From NCBI RefSeq assembly GCF_001747105.1, contig NZ_MDGQ01000003.1, positions 620,001-684,000 on the forward strand: 64,000 nucleotides of DNA, written 5' to 3'. This document shows positions 19,550-63,156 of the stretch, one piece after another. Each line of letters begins with the position of its first letter. Positions within the stretch are counted from its first letter, which is position 1. Made by a program: the position numbers and the translations under genes. Under the pieces are notes generated by a model. That model was not told the DNA's origin, did not search any database, and saw only the letters and a list, made by a program, of their open reading frames with translations. Source of the stretch: Roseivirga misakiensis. Its GTDB lineage: Bacteria; Bacteroidota; Bacteroidia; Cytophagales; Cyclobacteriaceae.

Positions 19550-20323
19550 TTATTTCATTCGAAAATAAATCTTGAAGGTAATATTGCTTTCAACGGCTTC
19601 GCCATTAAAAGTAGCAGGCTCCCAGTTTTTGTATTTCTTTATTACCCTGATTGCCTCATTATCGAAAGCTGTACCGAGTGATTTTCTAATCTTAAAGTTT
19701 GTCGCTTCACCTTTACGATTTATCGTCCAAAAAACCTCAACATACCCTTCTACATTCTTAGCCTCATTATTACCAACAGCAATTTGATCAGCTGGATAAA
19801 TCAGCTCATTATCGATGAATGACTTGAAAGCACTAATACTCGGTAGTGGCCGAGCATTTGTCTTTATGTCTTCATACTGTATTTGAGCAGGGTCTTGTAT
19901 AGCTGGCTTTACAACAGGTTTACTAACTGGCTTTGGTTTTGGTACAGGCTTTTTCTGAACTGGTACGACCGGTTTTTGCTTCGGTGCACTCGCAATGGAA
20001 TCTTTTGTAACTGGAGTAATTAACTCTTCTTCTTTAGGTTCCTCTTCTATTTGAATTTCCGATGGTACTAAATGCGCTGTGTTATTCTCCTTTGGCTTAA
20101 AGACATCAGTTGTTGTACCCACCACAATGGCTGTTGCAACTACAACAGTACTAGTACCTGCCACAACGGTCGTCGTAGCCTTTGCTCCTAACTTCAATAG
20201 CGCTGAACCAAGTTTGAACCCAGCCCACACAGAAGCACCTTTCACCACATTATCAAAGTTCATCTGAGCTTTGATATCATCAGGTGTTAAATTTTTCGCC
20301 TTATCTACAAATTTGTATTTCAC
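19550..20323 (-). CDS. TonB-like protein encoded with an ECF sigma factor
   Basis: A 257-residue protein. Residues about 1-45 look cytosolic (DKAKNLTPDDIKAQMNF). One membrane segment lies at about 49-71, followed by a Pro/Lys-rich periplasmic linker (PKQKPVVPVQKKPVPKPKP) and a TonB C-terminal domain from about 165 (VEGYVEVFWTINRKGEA, ending FKIYFRMK). TonB proteins transmit proton-motive energy to outer-membrane receptors. The GTG start overlaps the TGA of the sigma gene by four bases, so the two are translationally coupled. The position suggests the cytosolic N-terminus might act as an anti-sigma element; this is inference. Confidence 0.85.
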   Translation of the reverse strand: MKYKFVDKAKNLTPDDIKAQMNFDNVVKGASVWAGFKLGSALLKLGAKATTTVVAGTSTVVVATAIVVGTTTDVFKPKENNTAHLVPSEIQIEEEPKEEELITPVTKDSIASAPKQKPVVPVQKKPVPKPKPVSKPVVKPAIQDPAQIQYEDIKTNARPLPSISAFKSFIDNELIYPADQIAVGNNEAKNVEGYVEVFWTINRKGEATNFKIRKSLGTAFDNEAIRVIKKYKNWEPATFNGEAVESNITFKIYFRMK

Positions 20324-20889
20324 GATGTACTACGCTTAAAATATCTTTTCAACCTCTTTAGGATTCTGTAAGTCCGGGTTTTGGCATTGCCCTCCGTAAT
20401 ATCCAGAATGTATCCTATCTCCGCGAAACTCTTACCCTCAAAAAATCGCAACTCTATTAGTTCTAATTCAGCGGGTTTAAGTTTCTCCAACACGTCTGGC
20501 AACATAGTTAGCCAGAGCTCCTTCTCATTCTCCTCAATTTCAATTTCGAAGACGATATCGTGTGATATGTAATTTTCCAACGACACGTGCCGTTGCTTTT
20601 TCTGCGACCTGAAATAGTCATAGCAACTATTTAATGCTATTCGCGCCAACCAAGCAGATAAAGGGTATCCTTTATACTTATAATCATCTAAATGAGACAG
20701 TGCCTTTCCGAAAGCCTCGGAGGTAATATCTCCTGCCAAATCTACATCTTGAACTCTAGAAAAAACTAATCTAAAAACTTGCTCATAATACTTCTTATAA
20801 AGGGGTTCAAAGAACTTCTTATCCCCTTTAGCCTTCTCAATTAGCTCTATTTCCGTAAGTTCCGATATGGTCGATTTAGTCAAAATCAA
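20320..20889 (-). CDS. ECF-type RNA polymerase sigma factor
   Basis: A 189-residue sigma-70 family protein with only regions 2 and 4. Region 2 includes FEPLYKKYYEQVFRLVFSR, DLAGDITSEAFGKAL and AWLARIALNSCYDYFR; region 4 includes ELIELRFFEGKSFAEIGYIL. No ATG lies near the N-terminus: upstream an in-frame TAA closes the frame, and the best start is TTG at 20889 (another TTG is at 20883). It is coupled to a TonB-like membrane protein that may sense a signal for it. Confidence 0.93.
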   Translation of the reverse strand: MILTKSTISELTEIELIEKAKGDKKFFEPLYKKYYEQVFRLVFSRVQDVDLAGDITSEAFGKALSHLDDYKYKGYPLSAWLARIALNSCYDYFRSQKKQRHVSLENYISHDIVFEIEIEENEKELWLTMLPDVLEKLKPAELELIELRFFEGKSFAEIGYILDITEGNAKTRTYRILKRLKRYFKRSTS

Positions 20890-23735: not shown

Positions 23736-24383
23736 ATGGATTTAGCTCACTTAAGCAGAATAACAATTAAGGGGGAAGGTCAGTTTCTCGAATTCAAGAA
23801 AAAGGCTAATTACCCTGAAAAAATTGTTAAAGAGATAGTAGCATTCGCCAATAGCAATGGTGGAAAGCTATTGCTCGGTGTTGACGATGATGGAACCATT
23901 TCAGGGACTAGAAATATTGAAGGAGAAGCCTTTGTTTTAGAAAAAGCTATCGAAGAACTAATAAAACCACACATTGACTATCAGTTGGAGCTATTAAAAA
24001 TCAATGATAAAAAAGGCGTAGCTATTTTTAATATCCCAGAAGGGAGTCAAAAGCCATATCGCGCTTCAGAAAATACTCAACAAGAAATAGGCACTGCGTT
24101 TATTCGGTGTGGTGACGAAAGTGTAAAAGCGTCTAAAGAAATGCGTCAAATTCTTAAGCGAAAAAATGATGCTAGAGATGAGCGCTTTAATTATGGAGAA
24201 AAAGAAAAAATTCTGATGCAATTGTTAGAACAAGACAAGTTTACCAATGTATCAACGTTTGCAAAACAAGCCAATATCCCAAAGTTTATAGCATCCAGAA
24301 CATTAGTAAAGTTAGTCTTGGCAAACTTGCTTACGATTGAACCTTCTGCCCAAGGCGATAAATATTTTGTGAAAGAAACATGA
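23736..24383 (+). CDS. AlbA_2 (Schlafen-type) ATP-binding protein with C-terminal HTH
   Basis: A 215-residue protein. Residues about 5-140 are an AlbA_2 domain, shown by GEGQFLEFKKK, IVAFANSNGGKLLLGVDDDG, and an AFIRCGDESVKAS segment. The last 70 residues look like a winged-helix region (STFAKQANIPKFIASRTLVK). Such proteins are putative DNA- or RNA-binding regulators. The stop overlaps the SYLF start in ATGA, so the two genes are coupled; 38 bases separate it from the AAA ATPase gene. Confidence 0.85.
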   Translation: MDLAHLSRITIKGEGQFLEFKKKANYPEKIVKEIVAFANSNGGKLLLGVDDDGTISGTRNIEGEAFVLEKAIEELIKPHIDYQLELLKINDKKGVAIFNIPEGSQKPYRASENTQQEIGTAFIRCGDESVKASKEMRQILKRKNDARDERFNYGEKEKILMQLLEQDKFTNVSTFAKQANIPKFIASRTLVKLVLANLLTIEPSAQGDKYFVKET

Positions 24384-24928
24384 TGAAACGTTTAAGAATA
24401 GTTCCCCTAGTTTTTATAAGTCTTTTCATATGGAACATTGAGGCTGAAGCCCAACGCAGAAAGAAGCACGACCCGCAAAAGGCAGAACAAACACTTGCTG
24501 AATTTGAAAAAGTAGATCCTGGATTCGCAAAACTTGCAGCAGAAGCTTACGGATATGCTATTTTCCCTTCGATTGGTAAAGGAGCGATCGGAATAGGAGG
24601 AGCTGCTGGTAAAGGGGTAGTTTACAGAAAAGGTGACGTTGTAGGCGGTGTAAATATGACTCAAATATCATTTGGTTTTCAGTTTGGAGGCCAAGCCTAT
24701 AGCGAAATCATATTCTTTGAAAATGCTGATGCTTTTAACCGCTTTCAGGAAAATGAATTACAATTCGCCGCTCAGGTATCGGCGGTGGCCTTAAAGTCAG
24801 GTATCTCCGCAGACGCCAAGTATACAGAGGGAGTCGCCGTTTTTACGATGGCCAAAGGAGGTTTAATGTACGAGGCTGCCGTTGGTGGTCAACGCTTCAA
24901 GTTTATTCCCCCAAATAAGATGAAGTAA
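24380..24928 (+). CDS. Exported SYLF (DUF500) lipid-binding domain protein
   Basis: SYLF domains bind phosphoinositides in eukaryotes; bacterial members are exported and of uncertain role. This 182-residue protein has a signal peptide ending near AEAQ, then the family's AYGYAIFPSIGKGAIGIGG and GGVNMTQISFGFQFGGQ stretches and a Gly-rich end (GLMYEAAVGGQRFKF). The start ATG at 24380 overlaps the stop of the AlbA_2 gene; the following ATG at 24383 is equally possible. Confidence 0.9.
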   Translation: MMKRLRIVPLVFISLFIWNIEAEAQRRKKHDPQKAEQTLAEFEKVDPGFAKLAAEAYGYAIFPSIGKGAIGIGGAAGKGVVYRKGDVVGGVNMTQISFGFQFGGQAYSEIIFFENADAFNRFQENELQFAAQVSAVALKSGISADAKYTEGVAVFTMAKGGLMYEAAVGGQRFKFIPPNKMK

Positions 24929-25031
24929 TCATATCATTCTCATTTATACTATTTCAATTATTAACAATACCTAGCGTTACCATTATCAATTTTTGCGTTA
25001 TAATTATTATAATTGTATAAGGCAAAATAAA

Positions 25032-28000
25032 ATGATCAATACTGCACTAAGATTTTTATTCATACTGTTTTCGTTTTGTTCCTTTGCCATTATCGCTCAA
25101 GAGCAAGTTACTGACCCCAATAATGCTATAAAAATAGCGCGCGAATTAGCCAGTGTTAAACAATACGACTCCGCATCGAACTACTTTCAAAAGACCATTC
25201 AGCTCTCCATTGAAATAGAAGATAATTGGAATAAAACGCTAGCTCAGGCAGAACTAGGTAGAAATTGGATTTACCAAAGAGACTATGAAAAGGCAAAAGA
25301 GATATCAGAAGCAGTCTTAGAAAATAGAGGGGCAGCTATTAGAGCGAAGATCATTGCACACCAAAACCTTGGTCGTCTTTACGCAAGAAACCCTCAAGAT
25401 TATGATAAAGAAAAATACCATAACCATAAGGCCCTCAAGATAGCCTCAGAAGAAATTCCTAGACGTTTTTCAGCTAAACGCAAGAATGACTCTCTGAAAA
25501 CAAGTAATGTAATCAGAGGTCTTCAAGTCTTGTCTTACATGCACCGAGACTTACGGTCGTATGATTCGGCTCAATATTATATGGATCGAATTATTGATCT
25601 TTCGGAAGAAAAACAACCGGCTAACATTTACCAATTAGCCTATAACCAGCTCGACCAACTTTGGTTGTATGTCAATCAAAACAGATTTAGTGACACTAAA
25701 ATAGAGATCGACAGAACGCAACCCCTTATCGACAATCTTTCTTTAAACACTCAAGGTGAGTTCAACTTAGCCGCTAATTACTATAATCTACTAGATGTTT
25801 ACTACAGCAGAACTAGGAATACTGATTCTTCATTTGCCGCAAGAGTTAAACAAGAGCAAATAATATCTGCTAGCCCGAGAATAGACTCAACTCAATTAGC
25901 GCAACTTCAGACCAATATGGGAATTGGTTACTATACCACGGGGGACATAAACAAAGCTTTTGAATATGAGAAAAAAGCGCTCAAACTAAAGGAAAGAGTT
26001 CTCCCTGTTGATGACCTCGGTTTTGCTGCCAGTTATAAGATGTTGGGTATTTATAGAATAGATCAAGCTTTTGCTGGAGAAGAGGCAACGGAATACTTCA
26101 GAGAGGCGCTTAGAATAAATTTAAAACATCTTGGTAGACTTAATCCCACTACTGCTGATGCCATGTATAACTTATCCTACGGCCTCAACACTGCTGGAAA
26201 GTTTGCCGAATCTTTAGAAGTCGAAAGAGAGGTACTTGATATTTTTGCTGAAATAGGAGTAGGAGACTATGTCAAAGGATCCGTGTTAGCAGGAATTGCC
26301 ACCAACCTAGCATCGCTCGATAGCTTACAAGAAGCCATCTTCGCGTATAATGAACTAGTCAAATTTTCAAATATGTCTAAGATAGACATGTCGATCTATA
26401 AGGTAAAAGCCGAATCAGGATTAGGATTCTGTTATTTAAAAATGGATGAATATGACAAAGCTCTCAAACATTTCAAGGTTGCCGAAAGACTGTTAGTTCA
26501 AATGAGTGGCCCTGGCAATTCTGGACTAGCCGCAATTTATAATGGGATTTCGAAAGGCCTTAATGAACAAAATCGTTTAGATGAGGCATTGGTAATGATT
26601 AAAAAAGCAATTGAAGTCAATTCATACGACAAACTTCTTTTTAGTATTGACCCGATTCCACTTGATCTGTTAGCTAAAAAACAAATTCAATTTGTAGACT
26701 CATATGTCATTTACACTCAAATTCTTAAGCACAGAACAGAAATAGAAGAAAATCCTGATTTCGAAGAGTTCTGGAAAGTCTTTAATAATTCAATCGAAGT
26801 CATTGAGAGCTCCATTTCTGAACAAACTAACAGTGCCGATGTCATCTCACTCCTATCTGCTAATAAAACTTTGTACTCTGCTGGAATAGATATCCAATGG
26901 TTAATGGACAGTGTCAATATTGAATCGCAAGAATCACTTAAAATGTGGCAGCTCTCAGAAAAATCAAAAGCAATCAACCAAAAACTAAAAGACAGAAAGA
27001 GGCAAGCTACCTCTCCATTAAGCACCGATATTAAAATACAAGAAGGATTAACAGCAATCAGCGATCAAATAGCACAATACAAATCGTTGGCGATAAACGG
27101 AAATGACCATGATTCGGTAAGTGCTGGTTTGTTTAAGGCACTACAGGCAAAAAAAGAATATAAAGAGAAGATAAAATCAGATTTTCCTCGAGATTATTTA
27201 CTGAAGTACTTAACGGATGATATCTCATTTAATGATGTGAAAGTTTTTCTTGGCCCGAATCAAGTGATCTTAGATTATTTTATTGCAGGTGAAAATCTAT
27301 ATGCCTTCGTAATCAATGAACATGGTATTGACTCTTTCAAATTTGATTGGTCTACTTCGTTAAAAGCTAATGTATCAAGTTTTAAAAAGCATTTGGTCAA
27401 TGATTCTTTGAACCTATTTTATCAAGCAAGCAGGGACATTTATCAAGAGATATTTAAGCCCTTGGAATCAGCGATAACCGGAAAAAACGTCATAATTGTG
27501 CCTGACAAAACGCTTTGGAATGTAAACTTTGACCTTCTATTAACCAATTCAGGTAAAGAAATGCCAAAACCGAATGATTTTCTCATTTCGAAATATGCAT
27601 TCAGTTATAATTACTCAAGCGATTTGTTAGTGAAAAATGTTAAAAAAGAAGAATCGAAAAGCCAAGTACTTGGCTTTTCCTATGCTGACGACAATATCAC
27701 AGAACTTCAAGTAAGCAACTTAAGAGATAAGGCCAAGGCAAACCTTCCTGGAACTGCTCTAGAAGTGAGAAATTTAGCAGAATCTTTATTAGGCACATTT
27801 TATTTCGGAAAACAGGCTAGCGAAGAAGTCTTTAAGAAAAAGGCTTCAGCGTTTAGTGTCTTACACTTGGCACTTCATGGTGAAGTAAACGATAAAGATC
27901 CCGATAATTCTAAACTGTTTTTTGGAGGTAATGGTGATTTAAGTGATGAAGACAATACTCTTCACAGCTTTGAGCTTTACGATATGAACCTTAATGCCGA

Positions 28001-28409
28001 ACTTGCGGTATTGAGTGCTTGCAATACGGGAGCTGGGAAAATAACTGATGGAGAAGGCATAATGAGTCTCGGCAAAGCCTTTCAGTATGCCGGTGTAAAT
28101 AGTGTATTACTTAGCCAATGGGAAGTATCAGATGCCGTGGCACCTGAAATTATTGAGGCCTTTTATAAGTATCTGAAAGAAGGTCAGACCAAAGCTGAAG
28201 CATTACGATCTGCGAAACTAGACTTTCTCAAAACATCCAACAATATTACTTCAAACCCTTATTATTGGGGAAGCTTTTTCATACTAGGTAGCACAGAATC
28301 AATTGATTTTAAAACAAGTGATCAGAAGTGGTTCTGGTTACTAGGAGTTTCATTGATACTAGTTATCCTAATTTTCAGAAAACGAAAAATTATTAGAACT
28401 ACATCTTAG
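25032..28409 (+). CDS. Exported, membrane-anchored TPR-CHAT protease
   Basis: The start is the ATG at 25032; the frame also opens with TTG at 24993, but MINTALRFLFILFSFCS begins a signal peptide ending near IIAQ. Residues about 30-560 are TPR-like helical repeats (ATYFREA-type units), then a coiled region, and a CHAT domain from about 740. The caspase-like dyad is visible: His949 in HLALHGE and Cys997 in LSACNTG, followed by GEGIMSLGKAFQYAG and LSQWEVSD. A C-terminal transmembrane helix (WLLGVSLILVILIF) and basic tail follow. The protease domain should thus lie in the periplasm. Its stop overlaps the stop of the convergent gene at 28406. Confidence 0.92.
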   Translation: MINTALRFLFILFSFCSFAIIAQEQVTDPNNAIKIARELASVKQYDSASNYFQKTIQLSIEIEDNWNKTLAQAELGRNWIYQRDYEKAKEISEAVLENRGAAIRAKIIAHQNLGRLYARNPQDYDKEKYHNHKALKIASEEIPRRFSAKRKNDSLKTSNVIRGLQVLSYMHRDLRSYDSAQYYMDRIIDLSEEKQPANIYQLAYNQLDQLWLYVNQNRFSDTKIEIDRTQPLIDNLSLNTQGEFNLAANYYNLLDVYYSRTRNTDSSFAARVKQEQIISASPRIDSTQLAQLQTNMGIGYYTTGDINKAFEYEKKALKLKERVLPVDDLGFAASYKMLGIYRIDQAFAGEEATEYFREALRINLKHLGRLNPTTADAMYNLSYGLNTAGKFAESLEVEREVLDIFAEIGVGDYVKGSVLAGIATNLASLDSLQEAIFAYNELVKFSNMSKIDMSIYKVKAESGLGFCYLKMDEYDKALKHFKVAERLLVQMSGPGNSGLAAIYNGISKGLNEQNRLDEALVMIKKAIEVNSYDKLLFSIDPIPLDLLAKKQIQFVDSYVIYTQILKHRTEIEENPDFEEFWKVFNNSIEVIESSISEQTNSADVISLLSANKTLYSAGIDIQWLMDSVNIESQESLKMWQLSEKSKAINQKLKDRKRQATSPLSTDIKIQEGLTAISDQIAQYKSLAINGNDHDSVSAGLFKALQAKKEYKEKIKSDFPRDYLLKYLTDDISFNDVKVFLGPNQVILDYFIAGENLYAFVINEHGIDSFKFDWSTSLKANVSSFKKHLVNDSLNLFYQASRDIYQEIFKPLESAITGKNVIIVPDKTLWNVNFDLLLTNSGKEMPKPNDFLISKYAFSYNYSSDLLVKNVKKEESKSQVLGFSYADDNITELQVSNLRDKAKANLPGTALEVRNLAESLLGTFYFGKQASEEVFKKKASAFSVLHLALHGEVNDKDPDNSKLFFGGNGDLSDEDNTLHSFELYDMNLNAELAVLSACNTGAGKITDGEGIMSLGKAFQYAGVNSVLLSQWEVSDAVAPEIIEAFYKYLKEGQTKAEALRSAKLDFLKTSNNITSNPYYWGSFFILGSTESIDFKTSDQKWFWLLGVSLILVILIFRKRKIIRTTS

Positions 28410-29104
28410 TCTTGCAACGCATTAATTAGCTTTCGTGAGTCTGCATATTTGAATTCGCTTACCTCAATCTGGTTCAAAATTTCTATAGCAGAATTAACGT
28501 CGCCGACTTGCCAATAAGCCAATCCTAGATACCATTTTATCTGCTGGTAATATTTATTTAGGGAGTCTTTATTCAATTCCTCAAGTATTTGAACTGCCTC
28601 AATTGATCTTGAACTTCCAAGGGCGCTAATGGCCAAATAAAATTTAAGCTCATTATTTAGACTGTCAATTTGTTCCAAAGCAACATATGCCTTATTGTAA
28701 TCTCTAATACTATATGCCTCTAATCCCACTGAATAGTCTGTGGAATCTGATTCTCGCAAGGTTACATATTGGTCGAAATGATTAAAGTAATCTATAAAAT
28801 TTGGTTGAGAAGGCTTTAAAAGAAGATAAGAAAATGACACAAGTAGAACTAATGTAGCTGCTGCCGACCATAACTTGAGTCTAAAATTCCGACTCGTTTT
28901 ATTGGCTACTTGTAGGTGAATACTCTTGAAACTCTTCTCTAAATCCAACGCCTTTAATTGAATAGTAAGGTTCTCGAAATCTTCCAAAGCGATCTTGAGT
29001 TCCTCCTCAGAAACCGGCATACCATCATAATTGAGCACCCTCTCAGAAGATATCTCTCCATTCTTGAATTTTTCAAGCAACCTTATATCAATCTTCTCAT
29101 TCAT
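28406..29104 (-). CDS. Membrane TPR protein coupled to ECF sigma, candidate anti-sigma factor
   Basis: I choose the ATG at 29104 (MNEKIDIRLL), which overlaps the sigma gene's last codons by eight bases; a longer in-frame start at 29128 lies inside the sigma gene. The 232-residue product has a helical cytosolic N-terminus of about 78 residues, one transmembrane helix (about 79-97, LWSAAATLVLLVSFSYLLL), and a C-terminal region of TPR-like repeats (AYVALEQIDSLN, GLAYWQVGDVNSAIEIL). This layout and the coupling match sigma/anti-sigma pairs. No HxxxCxxC zinc motif of the classic ZAS domain is present, so the function is inferred. Confidence 0.78.
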   Translation of the reverse strand: MNEKIDIRLLEKFKNGEISSERVLNYDGMPVSEEELKIALEDFENLTIQLKALDLEKSFKSIHLQVANKTSRNFRLKLWSAAATLVLLVSFSYLLLKPSQPNFIDYFNHFDQYVTLRESDSTDYSVGLEAYSIRDYNKAYVALEQIDSLNNELKFYLAISALGSSRSIEAVQILEELNKDSLNKYYQQIKWYLGLAYWQVGDVNSAIEILNQIEVSEFKYADSRKLINALQD

Positions 29105-29675
29105 TTTCAGAAAAGTCGGATCTTTCAAGCTTATGTTTATTTACTAATTCAATCAAGCCTTTTAAGCACCTGTACTTTTTATTTTTCATTGCTGCTTCAC
29201 TTCCTAAACCGTACTTTTTTGTCAATTCAGCCATAGATGTTTTTAAGAAATAAAAATCCTCGAGAATCCTTTTACAGGAATCTCCTAACAACTTAAGAAC
29301 CTTTTTTAGTTTCTTGTGCGAGGCTAATATATCGTCTTCTTCAAAATAGTCTTGTTTGTCATCCAAGCTTGTGAAAATTGACAACCTTCTCTTCTTTAGT
29401 TCTTTAAGCCAAAGGTTTCGTGCAATTGAAAACAAATAGCCCCCTATGCTCCCATCCAAAAAATACCGGCCTTTTTGCACTTTGATAAAAAAAATGATCA
29501 AGGTCTCTTGAAATACCTCCTCCGCATAAGAGTCAGTTCCACTATTAGAGTTAACAAACTTTCTAATAGGTTGATAATTCCGACTGTAGAGATTGTAAAA
29601 GGCCTTGTCAACCTTCTTTTTCTCATCTGACTTAATCAAATCAACTATGTCTATATCGGACAAAACCTCCTTCAA
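29097..29675 (-). CDS. ECF-type RNA polymerase sigma factor
   Basis: A 192-residue sigma-70 family protein with region 2 (FYNLYSRNYQPIRKFV, YAEEVFQETLIIFF, GYLFSIARNLWLKELKK) and region 4 (LTKKYGLGSEAAMKNKKYRCL). No ATG exists at the N-terminus: upstream an in-frame TAA closes the frame, and TTG at 29675 is the best start, as in the other sigma gene here. The downstream gene overlaps its end. The gene ends beside the CHAT protease gene in convergent orientation. Confidence 0.93.
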   Translation of the reverse strand: MKEVLSDIDIVDLIKSDEKKKVDKAFYNLYSRNYQPIRKFVNSNSGTDSYAEEVFQETLIIFFIKVQKGRYFLDGSIGGYLFSIARNLWLKELKKRRLSIFTSLDDKQDYFEEDDILASHKKLKKVLKLLGDSCKRILEDFYFLKTSMAELTKKYGLGSEAAMKNKKYRCLKGLIELVNKHKLERSDFSENE

Positions 29676-29858: not shown

Positions 29859-30344
29859 ATGAATAAATCTAGCTTACATAAACATATACCTATTGTGGTA
29901 CTAATAGTAGTTCTGGTTACTAGTTGCAATAATCAGAAAAAAATAATTAGTGAATTGGGTTCAGTACTTCAAAATAAATCATCTAAACTCGGAATTGACT
30001 TTAACAAGAAAGAAGTCCTCGTCATCATTCCAAGAACTGGCTGCTCTGATTGTATAGGTACAGCAGACCTTTACTACAAAGAAGCATCCTACGACCCTTC
30101 AAGAATTCAATTTGTTTTTACAAGAATCCAGTCAGTAAAAACACTTAAAATAAGAATGGGAAAAGATATTGTCAGAAAAGAATTTGTGCATATAGATTCT
30201 GAAAGTCGCTTTTCAACAGGGAAACTTCATTCCATTTATCCCTTGATAGTCCGCCTTGAGGAAGGCGAAATAAAAGGCATTGAATACCTATCACCTGATA
30301 AAAAAAATCTGATTGATGAATTACGTGATAGGGTATCACTATAA
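29859..30344 (+). CDS. Thioredoxin-like lipoprotein with CxxC motif
   Basis: A 161-residue lipoprotein: the signal peptide ends VLVTSC with the lipid-carrying Cys at residue 23. A strand (EVLVIIPRTG) leads into Cys62-Ser-Asp-Cys65, placed as a redox-active CxxC after the first strand of a thioredoxin-like fold. The late segment YPLIVRLEEGEIKGIEYL could be the family's cis-Pro strand. I cannot assign a known family. It is divergent from the sigma gene (183 bases apart) and precedes the DUF4221 gene by 49 bases. It may make or break disulfides in the cysteine peptide at 31583; this is inference. Confidence 0.65.
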   Translation: MNKSSLHKHIPIVVLIVVLVTSCNNQKKIISELGSVLQNKSSKLGIDFNKKEVLVIIPRTGCSDCIGTADLYYKEASYDPSRIQFVFTRIQSVKTLKIRMGKDIVRKEFVHIDSESRFSTGKLHSIYPLIVRLEEGEIKGIEYLSPDKKNLIDELRDRVSL

Positions 30345-30393
30345 TCTCAAATTAGACTCGATTAGATGAACTATTAATTAATGTACCTATACA

Positions 30394-31557
30394 ATGAACC
30401 TAAATAGAATAAAAACATTGATTCTTGGCATAGCAGTCATTTTCGTAAGCATATCAAGTTGCGCAAGAAATTCCGAAGTCGATGAATATATCGACCCAGA
30501 GTTAACCCATACTCTTCAGAAAATTGGGGAATATGAAATTCCAGTTGACAGCATGACAACAACAAATTTCATACACTATCAGCACATTCAAGAAGGAGGG
30601 AAAGAATACTTTTCAATGTTGAACAACATCAAACAAGAAATCAACTTTTATGATGTTAAAAAACGAGAATTAGCATTCAAAATCCCGCTTATTATTGAAG
30701 GACCAAATGGAGTCGGGAATTTAGATGGCTTCAATTCAGGATATTATGTTCACAACCTAGACTCAATATTTGTACTAAACAGAAATAGAAGAGAATTTTT
30801 TCTCATTAATCGTCAATCAGAACTCATAAACAGCTTTGACGCATTCAGAGACAAAGACGTTCCCTCAGCAGTGATAGCCCCTTTTGCCCCAATGATTGTT
30901 CACAACGACGAAGCAATTCTGTTAAACATTCAGAATGGCATGAAATACTTTTCACGGAACAAAAGCTATAGAACTGACTATGCAACGAAAGTCGGATTGA
31001 CTAACCGTGATACTGAGTATTTTCTTTCCTATCCGGACATATTCACCACTGGTTCTTGGGGATTTGACCTTCACAGAATCTCATGGGCATTTGACCTAGA
31101 ACGGGAAAGAATTTTAGTTGGCTATCCATTAGATCATAATATTTATACACTCGATTTTGATGGAAGACTCTTAGAGAAAGCTCCCGCCAGAATTGAATCC
31201 GTCAAGAATGTTATATCTATCTCGAAACGTCAATTCAAATCAAAAAGTGGCCCACTCGAATATTATTTAGAACAGCCGAGGTATGGCCAAGTATTTTTTG
31301 ATTCTAAGCGAAGAATTATTCTCAGGGACTATACAACTGGTGTATCAGTAGAAAAACAAAAACAAGGAATTATTCAAGGTGAAAGGGTATTGGTAATTCT
31401 CGATGAAAATTTAAAGAAAACAGCTGAAGTAAAAGAGACCTCTCTTGGAATGATGGTTCTCTTCTTTAATGAGGATGGGTTACATAAGTATATTCCTTCT
31501 GACGATGAGAACAAGCTGAAATTTGAACTGTATGACTACGTAGTGATTAATAAATAA
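30394..31557 (+). CDS. DUF4221-type lipoprotein (likely beta-propeller)
   Basis: A 387-residue lipoprotein with lipobox Cys at residue 23 (VSISSC). The body has repeating strand-rich units (FYDVKKRELAFKIPL, YVHNLDSIFVLNRNRREFF, LVGYPLDHNIYTLDFDG) and resembles DUF4221, a Bacteroidota family grouped with six-bladed propeller lipoproteins. Related propeller lipoproteins are often encoded beside very short secreted peptides, and here a 73-residue peptide gene follows 25 bases later. No catalytic motif is visible. Confidence 0.75.
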   Translation: MNLNRIKTLILGIAVIFVSISSCARNSEVDEYIDPELTHTLQKIGEYEIPVDSMTTTNFIHYQHIQEGGKEYFSMLNNIKQEINFYDVKKRELAFKIPLIIEGPNGVGNLDGFNSGYYVHNLDSIFVLNRNRREFFLINRQSELINSFDAFRDKDVPSAVIAPFAPMIVHNDEAILLNIQNGMKYFSRNKSYRTDYATKVGLTNRDTEYFLSYPDIFTTGSWGFDLHRISWAFDLERERILVGYPLDHNIYTLDFDGRLLEKAPARIESVKNVISISKRQFKSKSGPLEYYLEQPRYGQVFFDSKRRIILRDYTTGVSVEKQKQGIIQGERVLVILDENLKKTAEVKETSLGMMVLFFNEDGLHKYIPSDDENKLKFELYDYVVINK

Positions 31558-55155: not shown

Positions 55156-55419
55156 ATGTTTGATGGTCCTGATTACAGAAAGTCCTTAGACGAGGACGTT
55201 TTTGACGAGTGGCTTGAGGCAGGCCGATCCAGCAAATTGAATTCAGAGTTTATGTTGGTGGTCTGGGACGATCAAGATCAAAATTACTATCCTGAATATG
55301 TCCGAGATAGAGCCGCTATTGAAACAAGCGGCCTTGAGTACTACGGGCAAACAAATGACATCCGCTCGGTTGTGGCCATTTATCACCTGTATTCAGAATC
55401 GAGGGTGAGCTTTGGCTAA
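55156..55419 (+). CDS. Small hypothetical protein, 87 residues
   Basis: An acidic soluble protein (FDGPDYRKSLDEDVFDEWLEAGRS...) without signal or membrane segment, containing VVWDDQDQNYYPEYV. I do not recognise it. It follows the FKBP gene by 11 bases, and its stop overlaps the stop of the giant convergent gene. Confidence 0.65.
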   Translation: MFDGPDYRKSLDEDVFDEWLEAGRSSKLNSEFMLVVWDDQDQNYYPEYVRDRAAIETSGLEYYGQTNDIRSVVAIYHLYSESRVSFG

Positions 55420-58400
55420 TCTGTTACCAATAACTTGAATCGAACCAATTGACCCTCCACGGGAACAACTACAACATAAATCCCTTTAACCAGCTTCGAT
55501 GTATTTATCTTAAGGCCTTTTGGTGTCAAGATTATTAGCGCGCTTTCTTGTTTACCGCTCACGTTATATAACCTGACCAAACTTGGTTCTAATTCTTCTT
55601 GTATATCAATAAATACATCACGGCCTGGTTGTGCTGGATTAGGATAAAGTTTTGGAATAGAGTATTCTTTGGTATATCTCACAGATACTATTTCTGATAG
55701 ATTTTCGATTCCATTAAAATCAATATCCACTAGTCTATAGAAGTTTAAGCCATCAGCAGGGTTAGGATCAACAATTGAGTACTCGTTGATTACATTGGAA
55801 TTTCCTGCTCCAGCAATAGTTTGAATGATGATGAAATTTATACCATCCGTAGACCTTTCTACTCGGAATGAACCATTATTAATTTCTGCAGAAGTTGACC
55901 AGTTAATGTCGACCTGATCATCATTCAAACTTGCAGCAAATGACAGCAATGTGATTGGTAAAGCACCCAACTCACCAGAGCCTAAGGTGAAAAAGACACC
56001 ATTGGATAAATCTACTTGAAAAATGACTTCTCCATCATCGTTGACTTCGAACGACTGAGATACAGTAATGGCACCTTCGCTGAAGTCTCCATCGGCATCC
56101 ACTAACAAGAGAATCTCTGATTCATCATTAGTTCCAACACCTTCTGGCCCCAACAAATTACCGACATCAAAAATAATATTGACCGTTCCGATGGTACCAG
56201 TCTCGCGAACTCTCCATTCTCTATTGAGCCTAGTTCTTACTTGCGAGTTATCAAATTCTTGGTTATTGATATCATATAGAGCGGCTCCATCATGTCCCCA
56301 AACCAGTGCCGATAAGTCTGTTCCAAAAGCACTTTCGTTCAATGCGTTGCTTGACTCTAAACCATCATCGTTGTCGTCTAGACCGATAGTAACAATGGCA
56401 TCTGAATTTTCACTTTTAGACTGGAGTTGGACTAAACAACTTTCGTCATCACGAACAATTCCCGCTATATTATTTTGGAAGTTAGAAAAGTCGGATGCAT
56501 CCCAAGCAGTTGTCCCATCTGACAATAAATAATCGCCTTCAATTCCTTCTTGTGCATTACCATCACCATCGGTGTCATCGGATAGCGTAATACCATATTT
56601 TAAGGCTAAATAGCTCTCAATCTTCTGTCTGTCGTTTGGCGTACTCAACAATTGATTATAAACTATTACCTCAGCTATTTCTCCATTAAATTGATTCGTT
56701 CCGGTACCAATTGCACCTATTTGAAAGTTGTTTGAGGATTCTGAACCGTGGTCAGCGGTGAAATTCAAGAAGCTTTCTCCATTAACGAAAACCTCAGATC
56801 CGCTACTTGCATCCTCATTAAAAATAACGCTTGAAATAGTCGTACTTCCATTAGAGAAAAGGCCTGCAATATCACTTTCTACCCCAGTTCCATTACTGAC
56901 TGCGTTATTCTCTCCAGATACGTCTTGCTGGTACCTGTCGAAGCTACCATCATTTTCTCCCCAAACGGCACCAGCATCATCTGCACTTGGTCTGTAAACA
57001 GTGATCACCGCGAGATCTGGGTTAGTACTTGCATTTATACTTAGGTCCGAAGTGTAAAAAGTACTTCCATTAAAAACATTGGTAGGGTTAAAGTTCATCG
57101 AACCAACGGTGGCGGTACCTGTCCGAATTAAAGAGACAAAATTATTGGATTGGTCAAGCCAGTTTGTACCTCCTTCATCTGCTCTCAACCATAACATAAG
57201 ATTAGTATCGACCTCGCCAGGAGCACAGGTAACATTGTTAATTTCTCTCCAATCTCTTTCGCTTGTTTTATCGGAAGTGGTAACATCTGGAAATGAATTG
57301 GCAGATTGATTATTGCTGACATTGGTGGTGGAATTTAACCCAGCCACATTATCAAAAGCGTCATCCAAACCATCAGCATCAGCATCGGTTCCTAGTGGTA
57401 CCACATTAGGCGCAAAATTACCATCGGTATCCCAACCTTCAATGATATCATTTAATCCGTCATTATCAGAATCGGTGTCCAAATGGTCGGGAGTTGTATC
57501 AGAAAATGCAAAGGCTCCATCTGTATTGACCGGTACCGTTGGCACGCCAGTGGTACCACCGCAAGGAGCGCAATTTATGTCAAAAGCATCATCTATACCA
57601 TCTTGATCAGAATCTACTCCAATTGGAACAATAGGTGTACCTGTGGTCGCTTGGGATTCAATCACATCGACTATGCCATCTCCATCGCTATCAATATCGA
57701 TTCTATCATTAAAACCATCACCATCTGTATCTGCATCGGTAAGTGCTGTTCCACCATTATCACTATCGAAAGTATCAGCCCAACCGTCAAGATCAGTATC
57801 TGTATCATCATCAACTCGTCCATCTTGATCAACATCCGTTCCTCCTGCTTCAGCTATATCAAAAATCCCATCGTTGTCTGAGTCCAGATCCAACCTATCC
57901 ACAATACCATCACCGTCGGTATCGCAATCTGCCTCGGCAGTTAATACAGAAAAAGGAATAGCTGTTTTAGCTATTGTAGCAGATTCATAAGAAACAGTGA
58001 GGCTAGCCCCTACAATATTTTCATAAAAGAGTACCTCAAAGCCGTAGATTCCTGGAGTTAATGCTATGGCACCTGAAGCCTCTATGTCCCCATGATCCCC
58101 ATCGTTATTGACCACTTCGGTACCATTGACAAAGAGCTTAGAACCATCGTCGCTTGAAGTAAAGAAAGTATATGTTTCGCTTGTGGAAATTTCTATAAAA
58201 CCATAATACCTTATCCCATAAGTATCCGCATCTCCTGGATCTAATAATGCCTGAAGGTCGTTGACAAGAAAATCTGTAACTGTGCCAGACCCAAGGGCAC
58301 TGCTGTTAGGAATATTTTCAACAGTTGGCGTAAATGTTCCATCGAAAAACTGATAGTTCAAACTATTGGTAAGGCTTGAAGGAGTAGAGGCACAATTAGC

Positions 58401-61400
58401 CTCGAAGATATCTAGAATACCGTCATTATCATCATCAATATCGTCTGAATCAGGGATGCCATCGAGATCGGTATCTATAATATTTTCTTCACGCCAATCT
58501 CTTTCAGCCGTACCGCTAGTGGTTTGGTTAGGGTAGTCATCGGAACTATCAGTTCCTCCAGGGGTATCATAGACATTAGTCGTACTATTCGGACCGACAA
58601 CATTATCGTAACTATCATCCAACCCGTCATTGTCAGTATCATCACCAGAAGCCGTGGTGTTTGGTGATGAGTCTCCATTGGTATCCCAACCTTCTACTGC
58701 ATCTACTAATCCATCATTATCAGAATTTAAGTCTAGGTAATCAGGTGTGCCATCTCCATCTGTATCAACAGGTACCGTTGGTGTTCCTCCATCATCATCA
58801 TCGAACTCGTCGTCAATACCATCATTGTCATTATCATTTCCTGTAGGTAATATTGGAGATGACGTACTTGCTTGAGATTCTATAATATCGATAATACCGT
58901 CACCGTCACTGTCAATATCTACTCTATTGGGGAAGCCATCGCTATCAGAATCTGGATCACTTAAAGGACTACCACTATTGTTGATATCGAAATCATCGGC
59001 AATACCATCATTATCACCGTCAGTATCATCATCTACTCGACCATCGGTATCTAAATCTAATCCGCCGGCTTCTAGAATATCGAAAAGACCGTCATTATCA
59101 GAATCTAAATCTCTGAAGTCTTTTAGACCATCATTATCAGTATCTAGGTTTGGTAAATTTGAACTATTGCCACTAAGTGGTTCAAAAACACTTGCCAACC
59201 CATCGGGACCATTTCCTTCTATATAATTGTCTACTCGTCCATCATTATCTGCATCAAAACTACCACCACCAGCTTCTGTAATGTCCAATATTCCATCGTT
59301 GTCTGAGTCCAAGTCTAATCTGTCGACAATGCCATCCCCATCAGTATCAACATCAGCCGCTGAACAAGTAAAAGAAATAGTTAAGAAACCATCTGATCCA
59401 GCGGCACCAGCGGCACCACCTCCACCATCTGTACCAGCCGTAACTGACCCTGAGACATAAGCTGGATCAGCAGTATTCAAGAAGGAACCGCCACCGCCGG
59501 CACTACCTGCGTCGCCCGCTGCACCGCCTCCAGAATAGCCGCCGCCACCACCTGACCAAGAACCATCCGCCCCACCGCCGCCGCCAGTGAAACCAGCTCC
59601 TCCAGCTGTCGAGCCACCACCTAAAGGTGTTCCTCCAGCCACTAATGTAACACCGTCTCCAGGTGTCAAATCAGCAGCAGCACCGCCTGTCGCTCCACTT
59701 CCATTCGACGTTCCAGCAGCGTTGATACCGCCACCACCACCGCCACCACCAGCAGTTGATGACGCACCGCCACCAGATCCAGAAGTACCACCGGCTCCGG
59801 GGCCAGTTCCTGTACCTGTATCACCTGCAGTTCCTGAATTTGCTCCTAAACCAACGGCTCCACCACTATTATCGCCACCGGCTCCACCACCAACAACCAT
59901 CATCAGCGTGTTATTAATGAATAAACCCGAACTACCTGCACCTCCTGCCGAATTCGAACCGGTACCTGAACTACCAGCCCCTACTACGTAGCGAATCACA
60001 TCACCATCTGATACATTAAATACTGCATTCGTAATGGTAGCACCTGAGCCACCAGCAGTAGCGGATCCTCCTCCACCATCTCCACCATTAATAGAAATTG
60101 TTACCTGACCATCACCAACTACGGTATAAGTACCTGTACCTGATAACGATACATCAACTTCTAAAGAAGGAGTGCAAGGTCCACCTTCATCGATGTCTGT
60201 AATTCCATCATTGTCGTCATCGATATCAATACTATCTGGAATCCCATCAAAATCAGAATCAGTTTCTCCATCAGTTTCTCTAAAGTCAAATTCTCCATCA
60301 GAATCCTCATCTGGAAGGCTTACGTTGGATGAACAGACAAGTGCAGGTCCGCCTGCAAGAGAGATTGAAAGTATGGTAGGATCATCTTCGGCTGTCCTTG
60401 TGCCAGATGGTCCCGTAAAGATCAAAACAAGAGAATTACCGTTTGACCAACCTGGTTGACCCACAATTTCTTGAATAATAGAAGAAATATCGACAGTTCT
60501 CTGATCGCTACCAGCTTCGCCAACTGTATTCCAATCTGCAGGACTCCAACTTTCAGAAGCCATTGTTCGCGTACGGCTAGAAACATTATTAGTCGCAGTG
60601 GTAAAGGCAGCAGCATTATCGCTAAGTTGACCCTCAATGGTTATGGTGAGGGCACCAGTTGAAGTTTCATCCGTCTGGAACTGAACCGTAGCGGCGGCTA
60701 TAGAAGCTCCTTGGTCAATAGTAACATTGGTAAAACGGATGCCAACAGTTTGATTATTAGATTCGTCTACTAATTCAAGGTCACTGCTTCCAAGATCTAT
60801 TGATCCGTCTGTATTGTCTTCTTCTGCGTGATCGGATAGTGAAAAATCCGTAGAAGCTCCTGCAACTACACAACCGGGGTCAAAGACATCATCCAAACCA
60901 TTCTCATTAGCATCCACGCCAGAATTGTCCTCATCAGCTACTCCGTTAAAATCAGCGTCATTCCCTTCTATGAAGTCGCTTTCAGTATCATTATCGGAAT
61001 TTATATCAATATAATCTGGTGTGCCGTCAAAATCATTATCAAATGGTATTATCGGATTTAGGCCTGAGGAAACATCCCAAAAATCGATGATACCATCTTC
61101 ATCAACGTCAGTAATAATGCTCGGGAAACCATAACCAGAAGTACTTTGTCCTTCTCTAGTGTCGTCAATTCCATCGGCATCTGAATCTATATCAATGTAA
61201 TTGGGTAGTAGGGTTAATCCATTTGGAGTCTCATAAGTAGATTCATCGGTATTTGGTAATGAAAACCCAGGAACTTCTAGCGAATCGGCATAGCCATTAT
61301 TATTTGCATCTACGGGATTATCTATTTGACCATCTCCATCCACGTCTGTTGAAATACCTCCTTCCCTAATATCTAAAATACCATCATTGTCGGAGTCTAG

Positions 61401-62978
61401 GTCTAGATAATCTGGGTAAATGTCTGCGTCTGAATTAAAAGGATCAGGTAGTACCCCATCATCAGCGACTCCCTCAATAGTGTCAACAATACCATTGGTA
61501 CCAACAGCTCCCGTGAGATTACCATCGGCAGACACAAATTCCGCTCTTATTACTCCTCTATTGGCTTCGACAGCATCAGGTATTCCATCATCATCCGAGT
61601 CTCTGTCTAAATAATTTGGAATACCATCATCGTCGAAATCATCTGCCCCTTCTATATCGTCTCGTATACCGTCATTATCTGAATCCAGATCGCATTGGTC
61701 TTGTATACCATCACCATCAGAATCAATTGTTCCTTCAAAGAAATCTGGTAAGCCATCACCATCACAATCTTCAGCGGGTATAAAGTCGTTTAGCCCAAAG
61801 TCATTGTCAGTGTCAGATTCTCCAAAGTTCACCCCATCGGTAAAAACGGCAGTTTCTAAGTTATCAGTCGTTATGGCTCTTGTAGTTCCTCCCGCATCCC
61901 AAGTTGCTGGGTCAGTTGACATAAGTAAAGTACCTGTGGTGACATAATAAAACTCATAATCACCATTAACATCTGTCACTGTAGATTGAATTCTTGAATC
62001 CTCTGGATCAATCTGACCGTCATTGTTTTGATCTAAATACAAATAAACAGTTACTCCTTCGATACCACCTGCCCCATCGTCATTTAAACCATTTCTGTCC
62101 GTATCATCGAATACTGTTCCCGAGATTAAGTTCGCGTCCGCTACTAGAGCTGCCAAAGATTCGACATCCGAAGCTCCTGTAAAGGTTTGGAAATTTGAAA
62201 AGACTCCTGTTGCAATATCAATCTCGCCTAATCTGTTTTCTGAACCTCCATCTGATCCATAAAGTCGACCATCATTGCTGAACGATAAACCTTCAATATC
62301 ATTTTCACTTAATGTTGAAATAATTTCAAAGACCCCCGTAGCGCTGTTCACCCTGAATAGTTGATCGCCAGTACCGCCACTATTCGTATTACCGTAAATC
62401 TCTCCTGTTGTAGGGTCTATAGCTAAATCATCTACGTCTACATTAATTCCAGGACCCGTGATTTCTAAGTAGTCTACCCCTGTACCGAATGCGTCAGCTA
62501 CAAACTGTCCAGTAGTCCTATTAATCTGAAATAATAAATCTGGATCTCCACTCCTTCGTTGAACAGCCCATAGGACTAATGACTGACCATCGAGCATCAA
62601 ACCATCCACATCATTCAAAGACTGTGCTCCATCTGAGCCATTCGCAGTACCTCCTCCATCAATATCTCCAATTGTTGTAAATGCGCCAGTAGACGTATTG
62701 ACTGACCCAAACGTACCACCGTTTGCGGCATACAAAGTCTGTTGACCGGGAATGGGAAAATAAGCCAATGCCTCAATATTGCTGGCGGTTGGCCCAATAT
62801 CTACAACAGCCCCAGTACTTCTATTAATAGAATATAAACGATTGTTACCGTCAGATACGTAATAGAATATATCAGGATTTTGTGCATCTAGAGAAAAAGA
62901 AGATAGGAATAGGATAAATAGGAATAGTGAATTACGCCATACTCTAGACGAGGCCATTGAAAGAAGGCCGATATTCAT
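55416..62978 (-). CDS. Giant T9SS-secreted multidomain surface protein
   Basis: I place the start at 62978 (or 62957), since the frame upstream of it lacks a signal; MASSRVWRNSLFLFILF leads to cleavage near LDAQ. The product is about 2520 residues. Order: a propeller-like region (about 40-283), an SdrD-type B repeat (286-393), Asp/Gly-rich thrombospondin type-3 calcium repeats (399-696), a CBM96-like region (699-886), a very Gly-rich region (940-1196), more type-3 repeats, a PA14 domain (1530-1673), more type-3 repeats, a LamG-like region (1916-2329), a FN3-like region (2339-2429) and a T9SS type-A sorting domain (PKLYPNPAQPG, 2438-2520). A surface adhesin or glycan-binding role is inferred. 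Confidence 0.93.
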   Translation of the reverse strand: MNIGLLSMASSRVWRNSLFLFILFLSSFSLDAQNPDIFYYVSDGNNRLYSINRSTGAVVDIGPTASNIEALAYFPIPGQQTLYAANGGTFGSVNTSTGAFTTIGDIDGGGTANGSDGAQSLNDVDGLMLDGQSLVLWAVQRRSGDPDLLFQINRTTGQFVADAFGTGVDYLEITGPGINVDVDDLAIDPTTGEIYGNTNSGGTGDQLFRVNSATGVFEIISTLSENDIEGLSFSNDGRLYGSDGGSENRLGEIDIATGVFSNFQTFTGASDVESLAALVADANLISGTVFDDTDRNGLNDDGAGGIEGVTVYLYLDQNNDGQIDPEDSRIQSTVTDVNGDYEFYYVTTGTLLMSTDPATWDAGGTTRAITTDNLETAVFTDGVNFGESDTDNDFGLNDFIPAEDCDGDGLPDFFEGTIDSDGDGIQDQCDLDSDNDGIRDDIEGADDFDDDGIPNYLDRDSDDDGIPDAVEANRGVIRAEFVSADGNLTGAVGTNGIVDTIEGVADDGVLPDPFNSDADIYPDYLDLDSDNDGILDIREGGISTDVDGDGQIDNPVDANNNGYADSLEVPGFSLPNTDESTYETPNGLTLLPNYIDIDSDADGIDDTREGQSTSGYGFPSIITDVDEDGIIDFWDVSSGLNPIIPFDNDFDGTPDYIDINSDNDTESDFIEGNDADFNGVADEDNSGVDANENGLDDVFDPGCVVAGASTDFSLSDHAEEDNTDGSIDLGSSDLELVDESNNQTVGIRFTNVTIDQGASIAAATVQFQTDETSTGALTITIEGQLSDNAAAFTTATNNVSSRTRTMASESWSPADWNTVGEAGSDQRTVDISSIIQEIVGQPGWSNGNSLVLIFTGPSGTRTAEDDPTILSISLAGGPALVCSSNVSLPDEDSDGEFDFRETDGETDSDFDGIPDSIDIDDDNDGITDIDEGGPCTPSLEVDVSLSGTGTYTVVGDGQVTISINGGDGGGGSATAGGSGATITNAVFNVSDGDVIRYVVGAGSSGTGSNSAGGAGSSGLFINNTLMMVVGGGAGGDNSGGAVGLGANSGTAGDTGTGTGPGAGGTSGSGGGASSTAGGGGGGGGINAAGTSNGSGATGGAAADLTPGDGVTLVAGGTPLGGGSTAGGAGFTGGGGGADGSWSGGGGGYSGGGAAGDAGSAGGGGSFLNTADPAYVSGSVTAGTDGGGGAAGAAGSDGFLTISFTCSAADVDTDGDGIVDRLDLDSDNDGILDITEAGGGSFDADNDGRVDNYIEGNGPDGLASVFEPLSGNSSNLPNLDTDNDGLKDFRDLDSDNDGLFDILEAGGLDLDTDGRVDDDTDGDNDGIADDFDINNSGSPLSDPDSDSDGFPNRVDIDSDGDGIIDIIESQASTSSPILPTGNDNDNDGIDDEFDDDDGGTPTVPVDTDGDGTPDYLDLNSDNDGLVDAVEGWDTNGDSSPNTTASGDDTDNDGLDDSYDNVVGPNSTTNVYDTPGGTDSSDDYPNQTTSGTAERDWREENIIDTDLDGIPDSDDIDDDNDGILDIFEANCASTPSSLTNSLNYQFFDGTFTPTVENIPNSSALGSGTVTDFLVNDLQALLDPGDADTYGIRYYGFIEISTSETYTFFTSSDDGSKLFVNGTEVVNNDGDHGDIEASGAIALTPGIYGFEVLFYENIVGASLTVSYESATIAKTAIPFSVLTAEADCDTDGDGIVDRLDLDSDNDGIFDIAEAGGTDVDQDGRVDDDTDTDLDGWADTFDSDNGGTALTDADTDGDGFNDRIDIDSDGDGIVDVIESQATTGTPIVPIGVDSDQDGIDDAFDINCAPCGGTTGVPTVPVNTDGAFAFSDTTPDHLDTDSDNDGLNDIIEGWDTDGNFAPNVVPLGTDADADGLDDAFDNVAGLNSTTNVSNNQSANSFPDVTTSDKTSERDWREINNVTCAPGEVDTNLMLWLRADEGGTNWLDQSNNFVSLIRTGTATVGSMNFNPTNVFNGSTFYTSDLSINASTNPDLAVITVYRPSADDAGAVWGENDGSFDRYQQDVSGENNAVSNGTGVESDIAGLFSNGSTTISSVIFNEDASSGSEVFVNGESFLNFTADHGSESSNNFQIGAIGTGTNQFNGEIAEVIVYNQLLSTPNDRQKIESYLALKYGITLSDDTDGDGNAQEGIEGDYLLSDGTTAWDASDFSNFQNNIAGIVRDDESCLVQLQSKSENSDAIVTIGLDDNDDGLESSNALNESAFGTDLSALVWGHDGAALYDINNQEFDNSQVRTRLNREWRVRETGTIGTVNIIFDVGNLLGPEGVGTNDESEILLLVDADGDFSEGAITVSQSFEVNDDGEVIFQVDLSNGVFFTLGSGELGALPITLLSFAASLNDDQVDINWSTSAEINNGSFRVERSTDGINFIIIQTIAGAGNSNVINEYSIVDPNPADGLNFYRLVDIDFNGIENLSEIVSVRYTKEYSIPKLYPNPAQPGRDVFIDIQEELEPSLVRLYNVSGKQESALIILTPKGLKINTSKLVKGIYVVVVPVEGQLVRFKLLVTD

Positions 62979-63156
62979 TTTTTTGTTAACAATTAAGCAT
63001 AGAAGATCTTTCAACCAAAATAAGTTGATATTTCTATTCCAATATGCTTTTAACTGTTTTATCAAAACCTCTAACCCAATGGGATAATACTACAAGATAT
63101 AATAGGCTATACCCTATACTTAAATAATAAATTGGTCAGGTTGAGGTTAAAGCACC

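Follow-up and report, generated by a model that had tools for sequence, protein, structure and literature searches.

CHAT-domain proteases have already been connected with the control of extracytoplasmic function (ECF) sigma factors. In type III-E CRISPR, the TPR-CHAT protease Csx29, which is described as acting within the RNA-guided Cas7-11 complex, is reported to cut the ECF sigma inhibitor Csx30 in a small loop (PMC10028731, PMC9729208), so that a CHAT-driven sigma switch, Csx29-Csx30-CASP-sigma, is already known in CRISPR. In Myxococcus xanthus, DdvA (PDB 8rot, 8rw5) is listed as a transmembrane anti-sigma factor of the ECF sigma factor DdvS; the 8rot molecule is named a CHAT domain-containing protein and, to judge from these names, DdvA itself bears the CHAT domain. 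Here we describe a locus in a 64,000-nucleotide stretch of the Roseivirga misakiensis genome (contig NZ_MDGQ01000003.1, positions 620,001 to 684,000; hereafter, the window), where a gene for a membrane-anchored TPR-CHAT protein adjoins genes for an ECF-type sigma factor and a single-pass, anti-sigma-like TPR protein. Comparison of sequences suggests that the three genes probably form a transmembrane signalling module, in which CHAT would act as site-1 protease and make the first, periplasmic cut in the anti-sigma factor.

The locus shares with the CRISPR switch a TPR-CHAT protease, a putative sigma inhibitor and an ECF sigma factor, yet it is distinct from it: the genes are separate, the CHAT protein carries a signal peptide and is predicted to be anchored in the membrane, a membrane helix is likewise present in the putative inhibitor, the candidate site residue is Arg or Met, unlike that of Craspase, and the arrangement is spread through the phylum. 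None of the eight window proteins scanned matched a Cas family (the rest of the genome lay outside that scan), and the Cas7-11 effector with its TPR-CHAT complex, by which type III-E CASP/Craspase is defined, was not found at the locus. Unlike DdvA, CHAT and anti-sigma factor are here two separate genes and proteins, and a hydrophobicity screen for a membrane helix at 70-220 revealed no fused, DdvA-like CHAT among those fetched. The locus also resembles the DegS-RseA-RpoE pathway and RsiW, as described, in its membrane anti-sigma factor and in the proposed first cut outside the membrane, with the difference that DegS is an HtrA-family serine protease, whereas we propose a separase-like cysteine protease. 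In Runella, a caspase-like protease is reported to cut a neighbouring gasdermin in a loop with Gly at P1' (PMC9079055), a comparable layout, except that P1 is Leu and the partner is described as a pore protein rather than an anti-sigma factor. PADLOC returned weak TPR matches only, in two of five proteins. The initial annotation held that such a model had not been described; this stands for the trio, of which we found no account in the titles, abstracts and passages of the open-access literature, and not for the principle, for which Csx29/Csx30/CASP-sigma and DdvA are precedents.

The TPR-CHAT gene (25032-28409, + strand, ATG start; a TTG at 24993 is an alternative start, giving an open reading frame of 24993-28409) encodes 1125 amino acids. 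Its product begins MINTALRFLFILFSFCSFAIIAQ and comprises a predicted signal peptide (residues ~1-22; 25032-25097), a TPR superhelix, the CHAT domain and a predicted C-terminal membrane helix (28320-28391) with a basic tail, the hydrophobic stretch being followed by RKRKIIRTTS. When 48 sequences are aligned, the Gln following the signal peptide, Q23, shows a conservation of 90% or more. In a Pfam scan of the window proteins the CHAT profile scored 191 bits over residues 813-1100 (TTG numbering), with additional TPR matches; His949, Cys997 and E911 are numbered from the ATG. The catalytic residues, His949 (codon 27876-27878) and Cys997 (28020-28022), are His and Cys in 116 of 116 CHATs, so that by profile and catalytic pair the protein is a CHAT peptidase (PF12770). 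An AlphaFold model (pLDDT 79.5) has an N-terminal helix, long helical repeats that fall in part below 50, mixed domains in which His949 and Cys997 sit, and a C-terminal helix at 1097-1124. Its best PDB matches are DdvA (8rot_A, 1.9e-14), Csx29 (8eex_B, 7.1e-14) and human separase (2.9e-13); another Csx29 chain, 8d9f_A, gives a chain TM-score of 0.61, and DdvA is also the best CHAT profile match (7.5e-7).

Tail-to-tail with this gene, and overlapping it by the stop codons (28407-28409 on the + strand, 28406-28408 on the - strand), lies the gene of the anti-sigma-like protein (28406-29104, - strand, 232 amino acids from an ATG; the other possible start is a TTG at 29128). The protein is predicted to have cytosolic N-terminal helices, one membrane helix and a periplasmic TPR domain. 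Modelled by AlphaFold together with relatives (mean pLDDT 90), it has a helix at 33-69, the membrane helix at 74-95 (28820-28885), a short helix at 103-106, a coil at 107-121 and helices up to 231; the TPR part resembles TPR folds, with a best E of only 1.6e-3 (2xev_B, chain TM-score 0.79). If the ATG is its start, the gene overlaps by 8 nucleotides that of an ECF-type sigma factor (29097-29675, - strand, 192 amino acids), which matches Sigma70_r2 at 27.9 bits against a cut-off of 24. Sigma region 4 gave no Pfam match in this protein at E 0.01, and matches below cut-off in two paralogues. The initial annotation had described the intact CHAT gene with its signal peptide, TPRs and C-terminal helix, the overlapping stops and the coupling of the sigma gene to one for a membrane protein whose TPR-like repeats are periplasmic; the reading frames, profile matches, overlaps and predicted topology bear it out on each of these. 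Its naming of the membrane protein as an anti-sigma factor fared less evenly. The layout of a membrane class I anti-sigma factor is present, with a predicted cytosolic N-terminus, one membrane helix and a gene adjoining that of the sigma factor, and zf-HC2 matches the N-terminus of two of 34 family members, above cut-off in one (L020), which supports the reading, but the window protein itself has no anti-sigma Pfam match.

The arrangement recurs within the host genome and well beyond it. The 4.45 Mb genome has three CHAT matches, and each has as neighbours a gene for an ECF-type sigma factor and one for a TPR protein with a single membrane helix (3/3), the genes being convergent in the window, all in line at locus L004 and again convergent at L005. 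With 43 sigma-region-2 matches in the genome, about 0.056 would be expected within 3 kb per CHAT gene; two of the three adjoin one of the 43, and the chance of at least two is about 0.009. The neighbour of the third, at L005, is a sigma-like gene scoring under the Pfam cut-offs, and the chance of 1.8e-4 computed for three of three is therefore too small. CHAT is present in 50 of 59 related genomes. From the matches listed we hand-picked 100 stretches, taking most of the same-family ones plus a sample of the others, and kept 116 CHATs from the host genome and its relatives (4 of 120 matches were left out as too short). A FastTree phylogeny of these groups all 51 CHATs with a C-terminal membrane helix in a single clade (support 97) of 53 members, the other two being L098 and L015, which runs off its stretch. 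Sigma and anti-sigma-like genes both lie no more than six genes away for 34/51 of the anchored CHATs, as against 1/65 of the others (p 1.7e-15). In a further set, the best 80 among the loci that a scan listed, some of which end early at contig ends, the proportion is smaller: 27 have a sigma/anti-sigma pair, found beside 29/76 anchored and 2/10 unanchored CHAT genes; loci with the module include representatives of Winogradskyella, Aquimarina, Kordia, Fulvivirga, Saprospiraceae and Bacteroidales.

The association also holds when approached from the anti-sigma side. We built a profile, A1, from 34 anti-sigma-like proteins, having left out 8 of 42 first matches (four were spurious, and L038, L058, L085 and L105 lack TPRs), searched it in relatives and fetched 60 stretches outside the CHAT-derived loci, accepting genes with at least 60 bits over at least 150 positions. 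A sigma gene lies within two genes of 53 of these 60 anti-sigma-like genes, and a CHAT gene within six of 39. In the class sample, matches to A1 of at least 95 bits over at least 190 positions occur in 57/142 CHAT-bearing genomes versus 4/253 CHAT-less ones; in the relatives, at a similar cut, in 32/50 versus 1/9. The full-length profile occurs in 12 of the 15 genomes searched in one genus (g53), with CHAT about 3 kb off on the same strand; two of the remaining three have no CHAT and one has a fragment only, and the full-length profile is absent from all three. The initial annotation had set conservation of this neighbourhood beforehand as one of the points on which its model could fall, and here the model stood, the trio turning up again both in relatives and in distant Bacteroidota.

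The partners also co-diversify. The correlation between CHAT and anti-sigma distances is 0.69 across 62 modules from 28 genomes, as against 0.22 +/- 0.06 when partners are exchanged within each genome, and none of 2000 such swaps reaches 0.69; the CHAT-sigma (0.60) and anti-sigma-sigma (0.79) correlations behave similarly. The nearest CHAT module is also the nearest anti-sigma module in 22/62, a count that stands without a null. CHAT is opposite in strand to the anti-sigma gene in 49/62 modules, and thus is seldom in its operon.

Conservation within the membrane protein points to a candidate site of action. Just two columns are invariant across the 34 anti-sigma-like proteins, whose mean column identity is 22%: A83, which belongs to the membrane helix, and R117 (codon 28754-28756, - strand), in the juxtamembrane loop on the predicted periplasmic side. 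The model puts R117 in a predicted coil flanked by a short helix on one side and the first TPR on the other, and we regard it, from conservation and the model, as the candidate P1 of a cut in this loop (YVTLR/ESDS, with the slash at the putative cut). In a set of 94 proteins, the column holds Arg in 70 of 72 with CHAT within six genes and Met in the remaining two. The sequence of a minority of linkers is DPGLPVPM/S or similar, with Met in place of Arg. An alignment-free count finds an R site in 105/108 CHAT-near linkers. The window of that count is permissive, and we therefore added a residue control: counted from the preceding aromatic motif, R occurs in 93% and K in 19% of 99 CHAT-near linkers, R mostly 10-12 residues on. 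Among the 90 proteins with Arg in the single column of a 151-sequence alignment, the residue after it is Gly in 33, Ser in 28, Asp in 8, Asn, Glu and Ala in 5 each, and Val, Leu and Thr in 2 each, so that a P1' Gly or Ser accounts for 61/90. The Arg site is missing by the alignment-free count from 5/6 CHAT-less genomes with a readable match (L160 has one off the motif), and R is found in 2/5 in the motif-anchored window, a weak comparison, as three of the six have no sigma gene alongside and two belong to a family with unlinked CHATs (f13).

A matched change on the protease side accompanies the exchange of Arg for Met. Glu911 (codon 27762-27764, + strand), a candidate S1 residue, lies 38 residues before His949 in the motif LPGT..E; all 116 CHATs in the first sample carry it, whether or not a sigma gene is nearby. 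When CHATs with Arg-type and Met-type partners are compared, the clearest difference in acidic residues falls at 911, with Glu in 64/66 of the former and an acid in 0/14 of the latter. In a stricter set of 109 CHATs, residue 911 is non-acidic in 9/10 Met-type proteins versus 1/99 others. In the remaining Met-type protein (L304), an Asp occurs within a gapped part of the alignment; L151, an Arg-type module with a non-acidic CHAT, is kept as Arg-type in these counts, while back-counting from its first TPR aligns its Met with that of L156 (post hoc). Eleven CHATs of genus g53 were scored as Met-type in the 66-versus-14 comparison before all their partners had been read; the seven partners read afterwards all show DPGLPV[PA]M and then S or G, and the loop is remodelled in the same way in the one g53 CHAT outside that comparison (L287). 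Seven of the ten Met-type CHATs in the stricter set form one clade and the other three lie outside it, so that their independence is thin. In metacaspases and caspases, the S1 residues occupy a loop that we take to match LPGT..E. In Craspase, D543, 42 residues before the His, is described as one of the residues that, by their contacts, block access to the catalytic residues. The match of Arg or Met with residue 911 is the pattern expected of a cleavage site and its S1 pocket, with few independent switches. Another acid, D1034, the invariant Asp of W.V.D, was considered as the S1 residue and dropped, as the separase residue lies four positions further on and is variable here.

Given the candidate site and the protease residue that covaries with it, cutting of the anti-sigma factor by CHAT is the best-supported model. 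The single-pass protein would act as an anti-sigma factor, holding the sigma factor at the membrane, and the CHAT protease would face the periplasm. A signal, received perhaps through the TPRs of CHAT or those of the anti-sigma factor, would license CHAT to cut the juxtamembrane loop after R117, or after the Met that takes its place in a minority of modules; E911 would read the basic P1 residue. The TPR domain would then be shed, leaving a stub open to an intramembrane (site-2) protease, and the sigma factor would be freed. The cut itself had been put forward in the initial annotation; R117 and the covarying E911 now give it a candidate place and pocket.

Several observations weigh against this model. 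No sigma/anti-sigma pair is in reach for 17/51 anchored CHATs of the first sample and 47/76 of those in the 80 loci, some of which are cut by contig ends, and in family f13, many genomes of which have the A1 profile, CHAT lies far from the anti-sigma-like gene in 11/12 CHAT-bearing genomes examined (the exception is G616). Linked genes travelling together would also produce the co-diversification. Arg is also kept in 16/22 proteins without CHAT within six genes, and in an alignment of 151 sequences it is spread over neighbouring columns, a single column holding it in 70/107 CHAT-near proteins, a blur caused by gaps. The known CHAT cuts, as their sources describe them, have Leu at P1 or fall at 427-429 beside Met427, none being given as Arg. 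The residue with which separase reads a P1 Arg (D2151; K670 in Csx29) falls, by our count on the alignment, at W+8, a position that varies among the 33 sigma-linked CHATs and holds an acid in none of them. Finally, the Met/Glu switch occurred only about 3-4 times on the tree, and an independent-pairs test has 2-4 pairs, with which significance is unreachable.

The main rival is that CHAT is a non-cutting partner that binds the TPRs or juxtamembrane loop of the anti-sigma factor and signals by conformation, R117 being a binding residue, much as if a DdvA-like CHAT-bearing anti-sigma factor had been separated into two proteins. The top structural match of the CHAT model, DdvA, is a transmembrane anti-sigma factor, as this would lead one to expect, and both co-diversification and the match of Arg or Met with Glu911 suit binding equally with cutting. 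However, a mere binder would have no need of the His and Cys retained in all 116 CHATs, and an Arg followed by Gly or Ser in a coil resembles a protease site; we consider a purely binding role unlikely, if the most serious of the alternatives. That CHAT cuts the anti-sigma factor elsewhere, with R117 serving, for instance, in loop docking, would accord with the non-basic P1 of known CHAT cuts, but a general role for positive charge would accept Lys, which is far rarer than Arg in the 99 linkers (19% against 93%), and we give this very little credence.

CHAT might instead be an output, the sigma factor turning on an adjoining protease whose substrate is elsewhere. Sigma regulons often include neighbours, and some anchored CHATs stand alone, as this would allow; against it, CHAT is seldom in the anti-sigma operon, and neither the match of Arg or Met with Glu911 nor the way in which the anti-sigma family follows CHAT across genomes would be explained, which makes it an improbable account. 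Least plausible of all is that the adjacency is neutral linkage or a sampling artefact. The loci were indeed picked via CHAT or anti-sigma matches, among the matches listed, yet the survey agrees in both directions and the unanchored CHATs of the same genomes serve as a control.

If CHAT does cut the anti-sigma factor, the separase/Craspase protease family would be placed in ordinary envelope signalling and linked to the CRISPR sigma switch. Just 6% of Bacteroidetes ECF sigma factors are reported to have a class I anti-sigma gene in their neighbourhood (PMC7406223), and the module would offer one common answer to how the remaining ones are controlled, with a candidate site and pocket residue. 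We see about an even chance of a broader generalization, in which membrane-anchored separase-like proteases throughout the Bacteroidota are dedicated site-1 proteases of ECF anti-sigma factors, reading Arg via Glu911 or Met via a remodelled pocket; each would have co-evolved with its own partner, and a single cell would thus hold several insulated proteolytic switches.

Other arrangements of these families were seen in the course of the survey. Five Aureispira records (L205, L206, L236, L239 and L243) have several anchored CHATs and no sigma/anti-sigma pair in the stretch; these CHATs may serve distant anti-sigma factors. Three genomes of the host's genus (L121, L122 and L124) have an anti-sigma/sigma pair like that of L005, with the Arg kept and no CHAT within six genes. 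The four TPR-less proteins left out of A1 represent a second anti-sigma-like type, which ends in a YxFxDTL-like region and lies near ECF sigma genes and CHATs without a C-terminal anchor. One genome of 4.1 Mb (G037) has 33 CHAT matches (49 candidates at first look), some of them arranged in tandem; in five of its stretches (L100-L104), no CHAT has a C-terminal anchor and none has a sigma pair.

Within the window, a SYLF-domain protein is encoded immediately upstream of CHAT (24380-24928), and divergent from the sigma gene are a 161-amino-acid lipoprotein-like open reading frame and a gene for a DUF4221 protein (29859-31557), both possible targets. A second ECF sigma gene (19550-20889) is coupled to one whose product carries a hydrophobic stretch as well as a TonB_C domain, a different partner layout, and an open reading frame of 2549 amino acids occupies 55416-63065 on the - strand.

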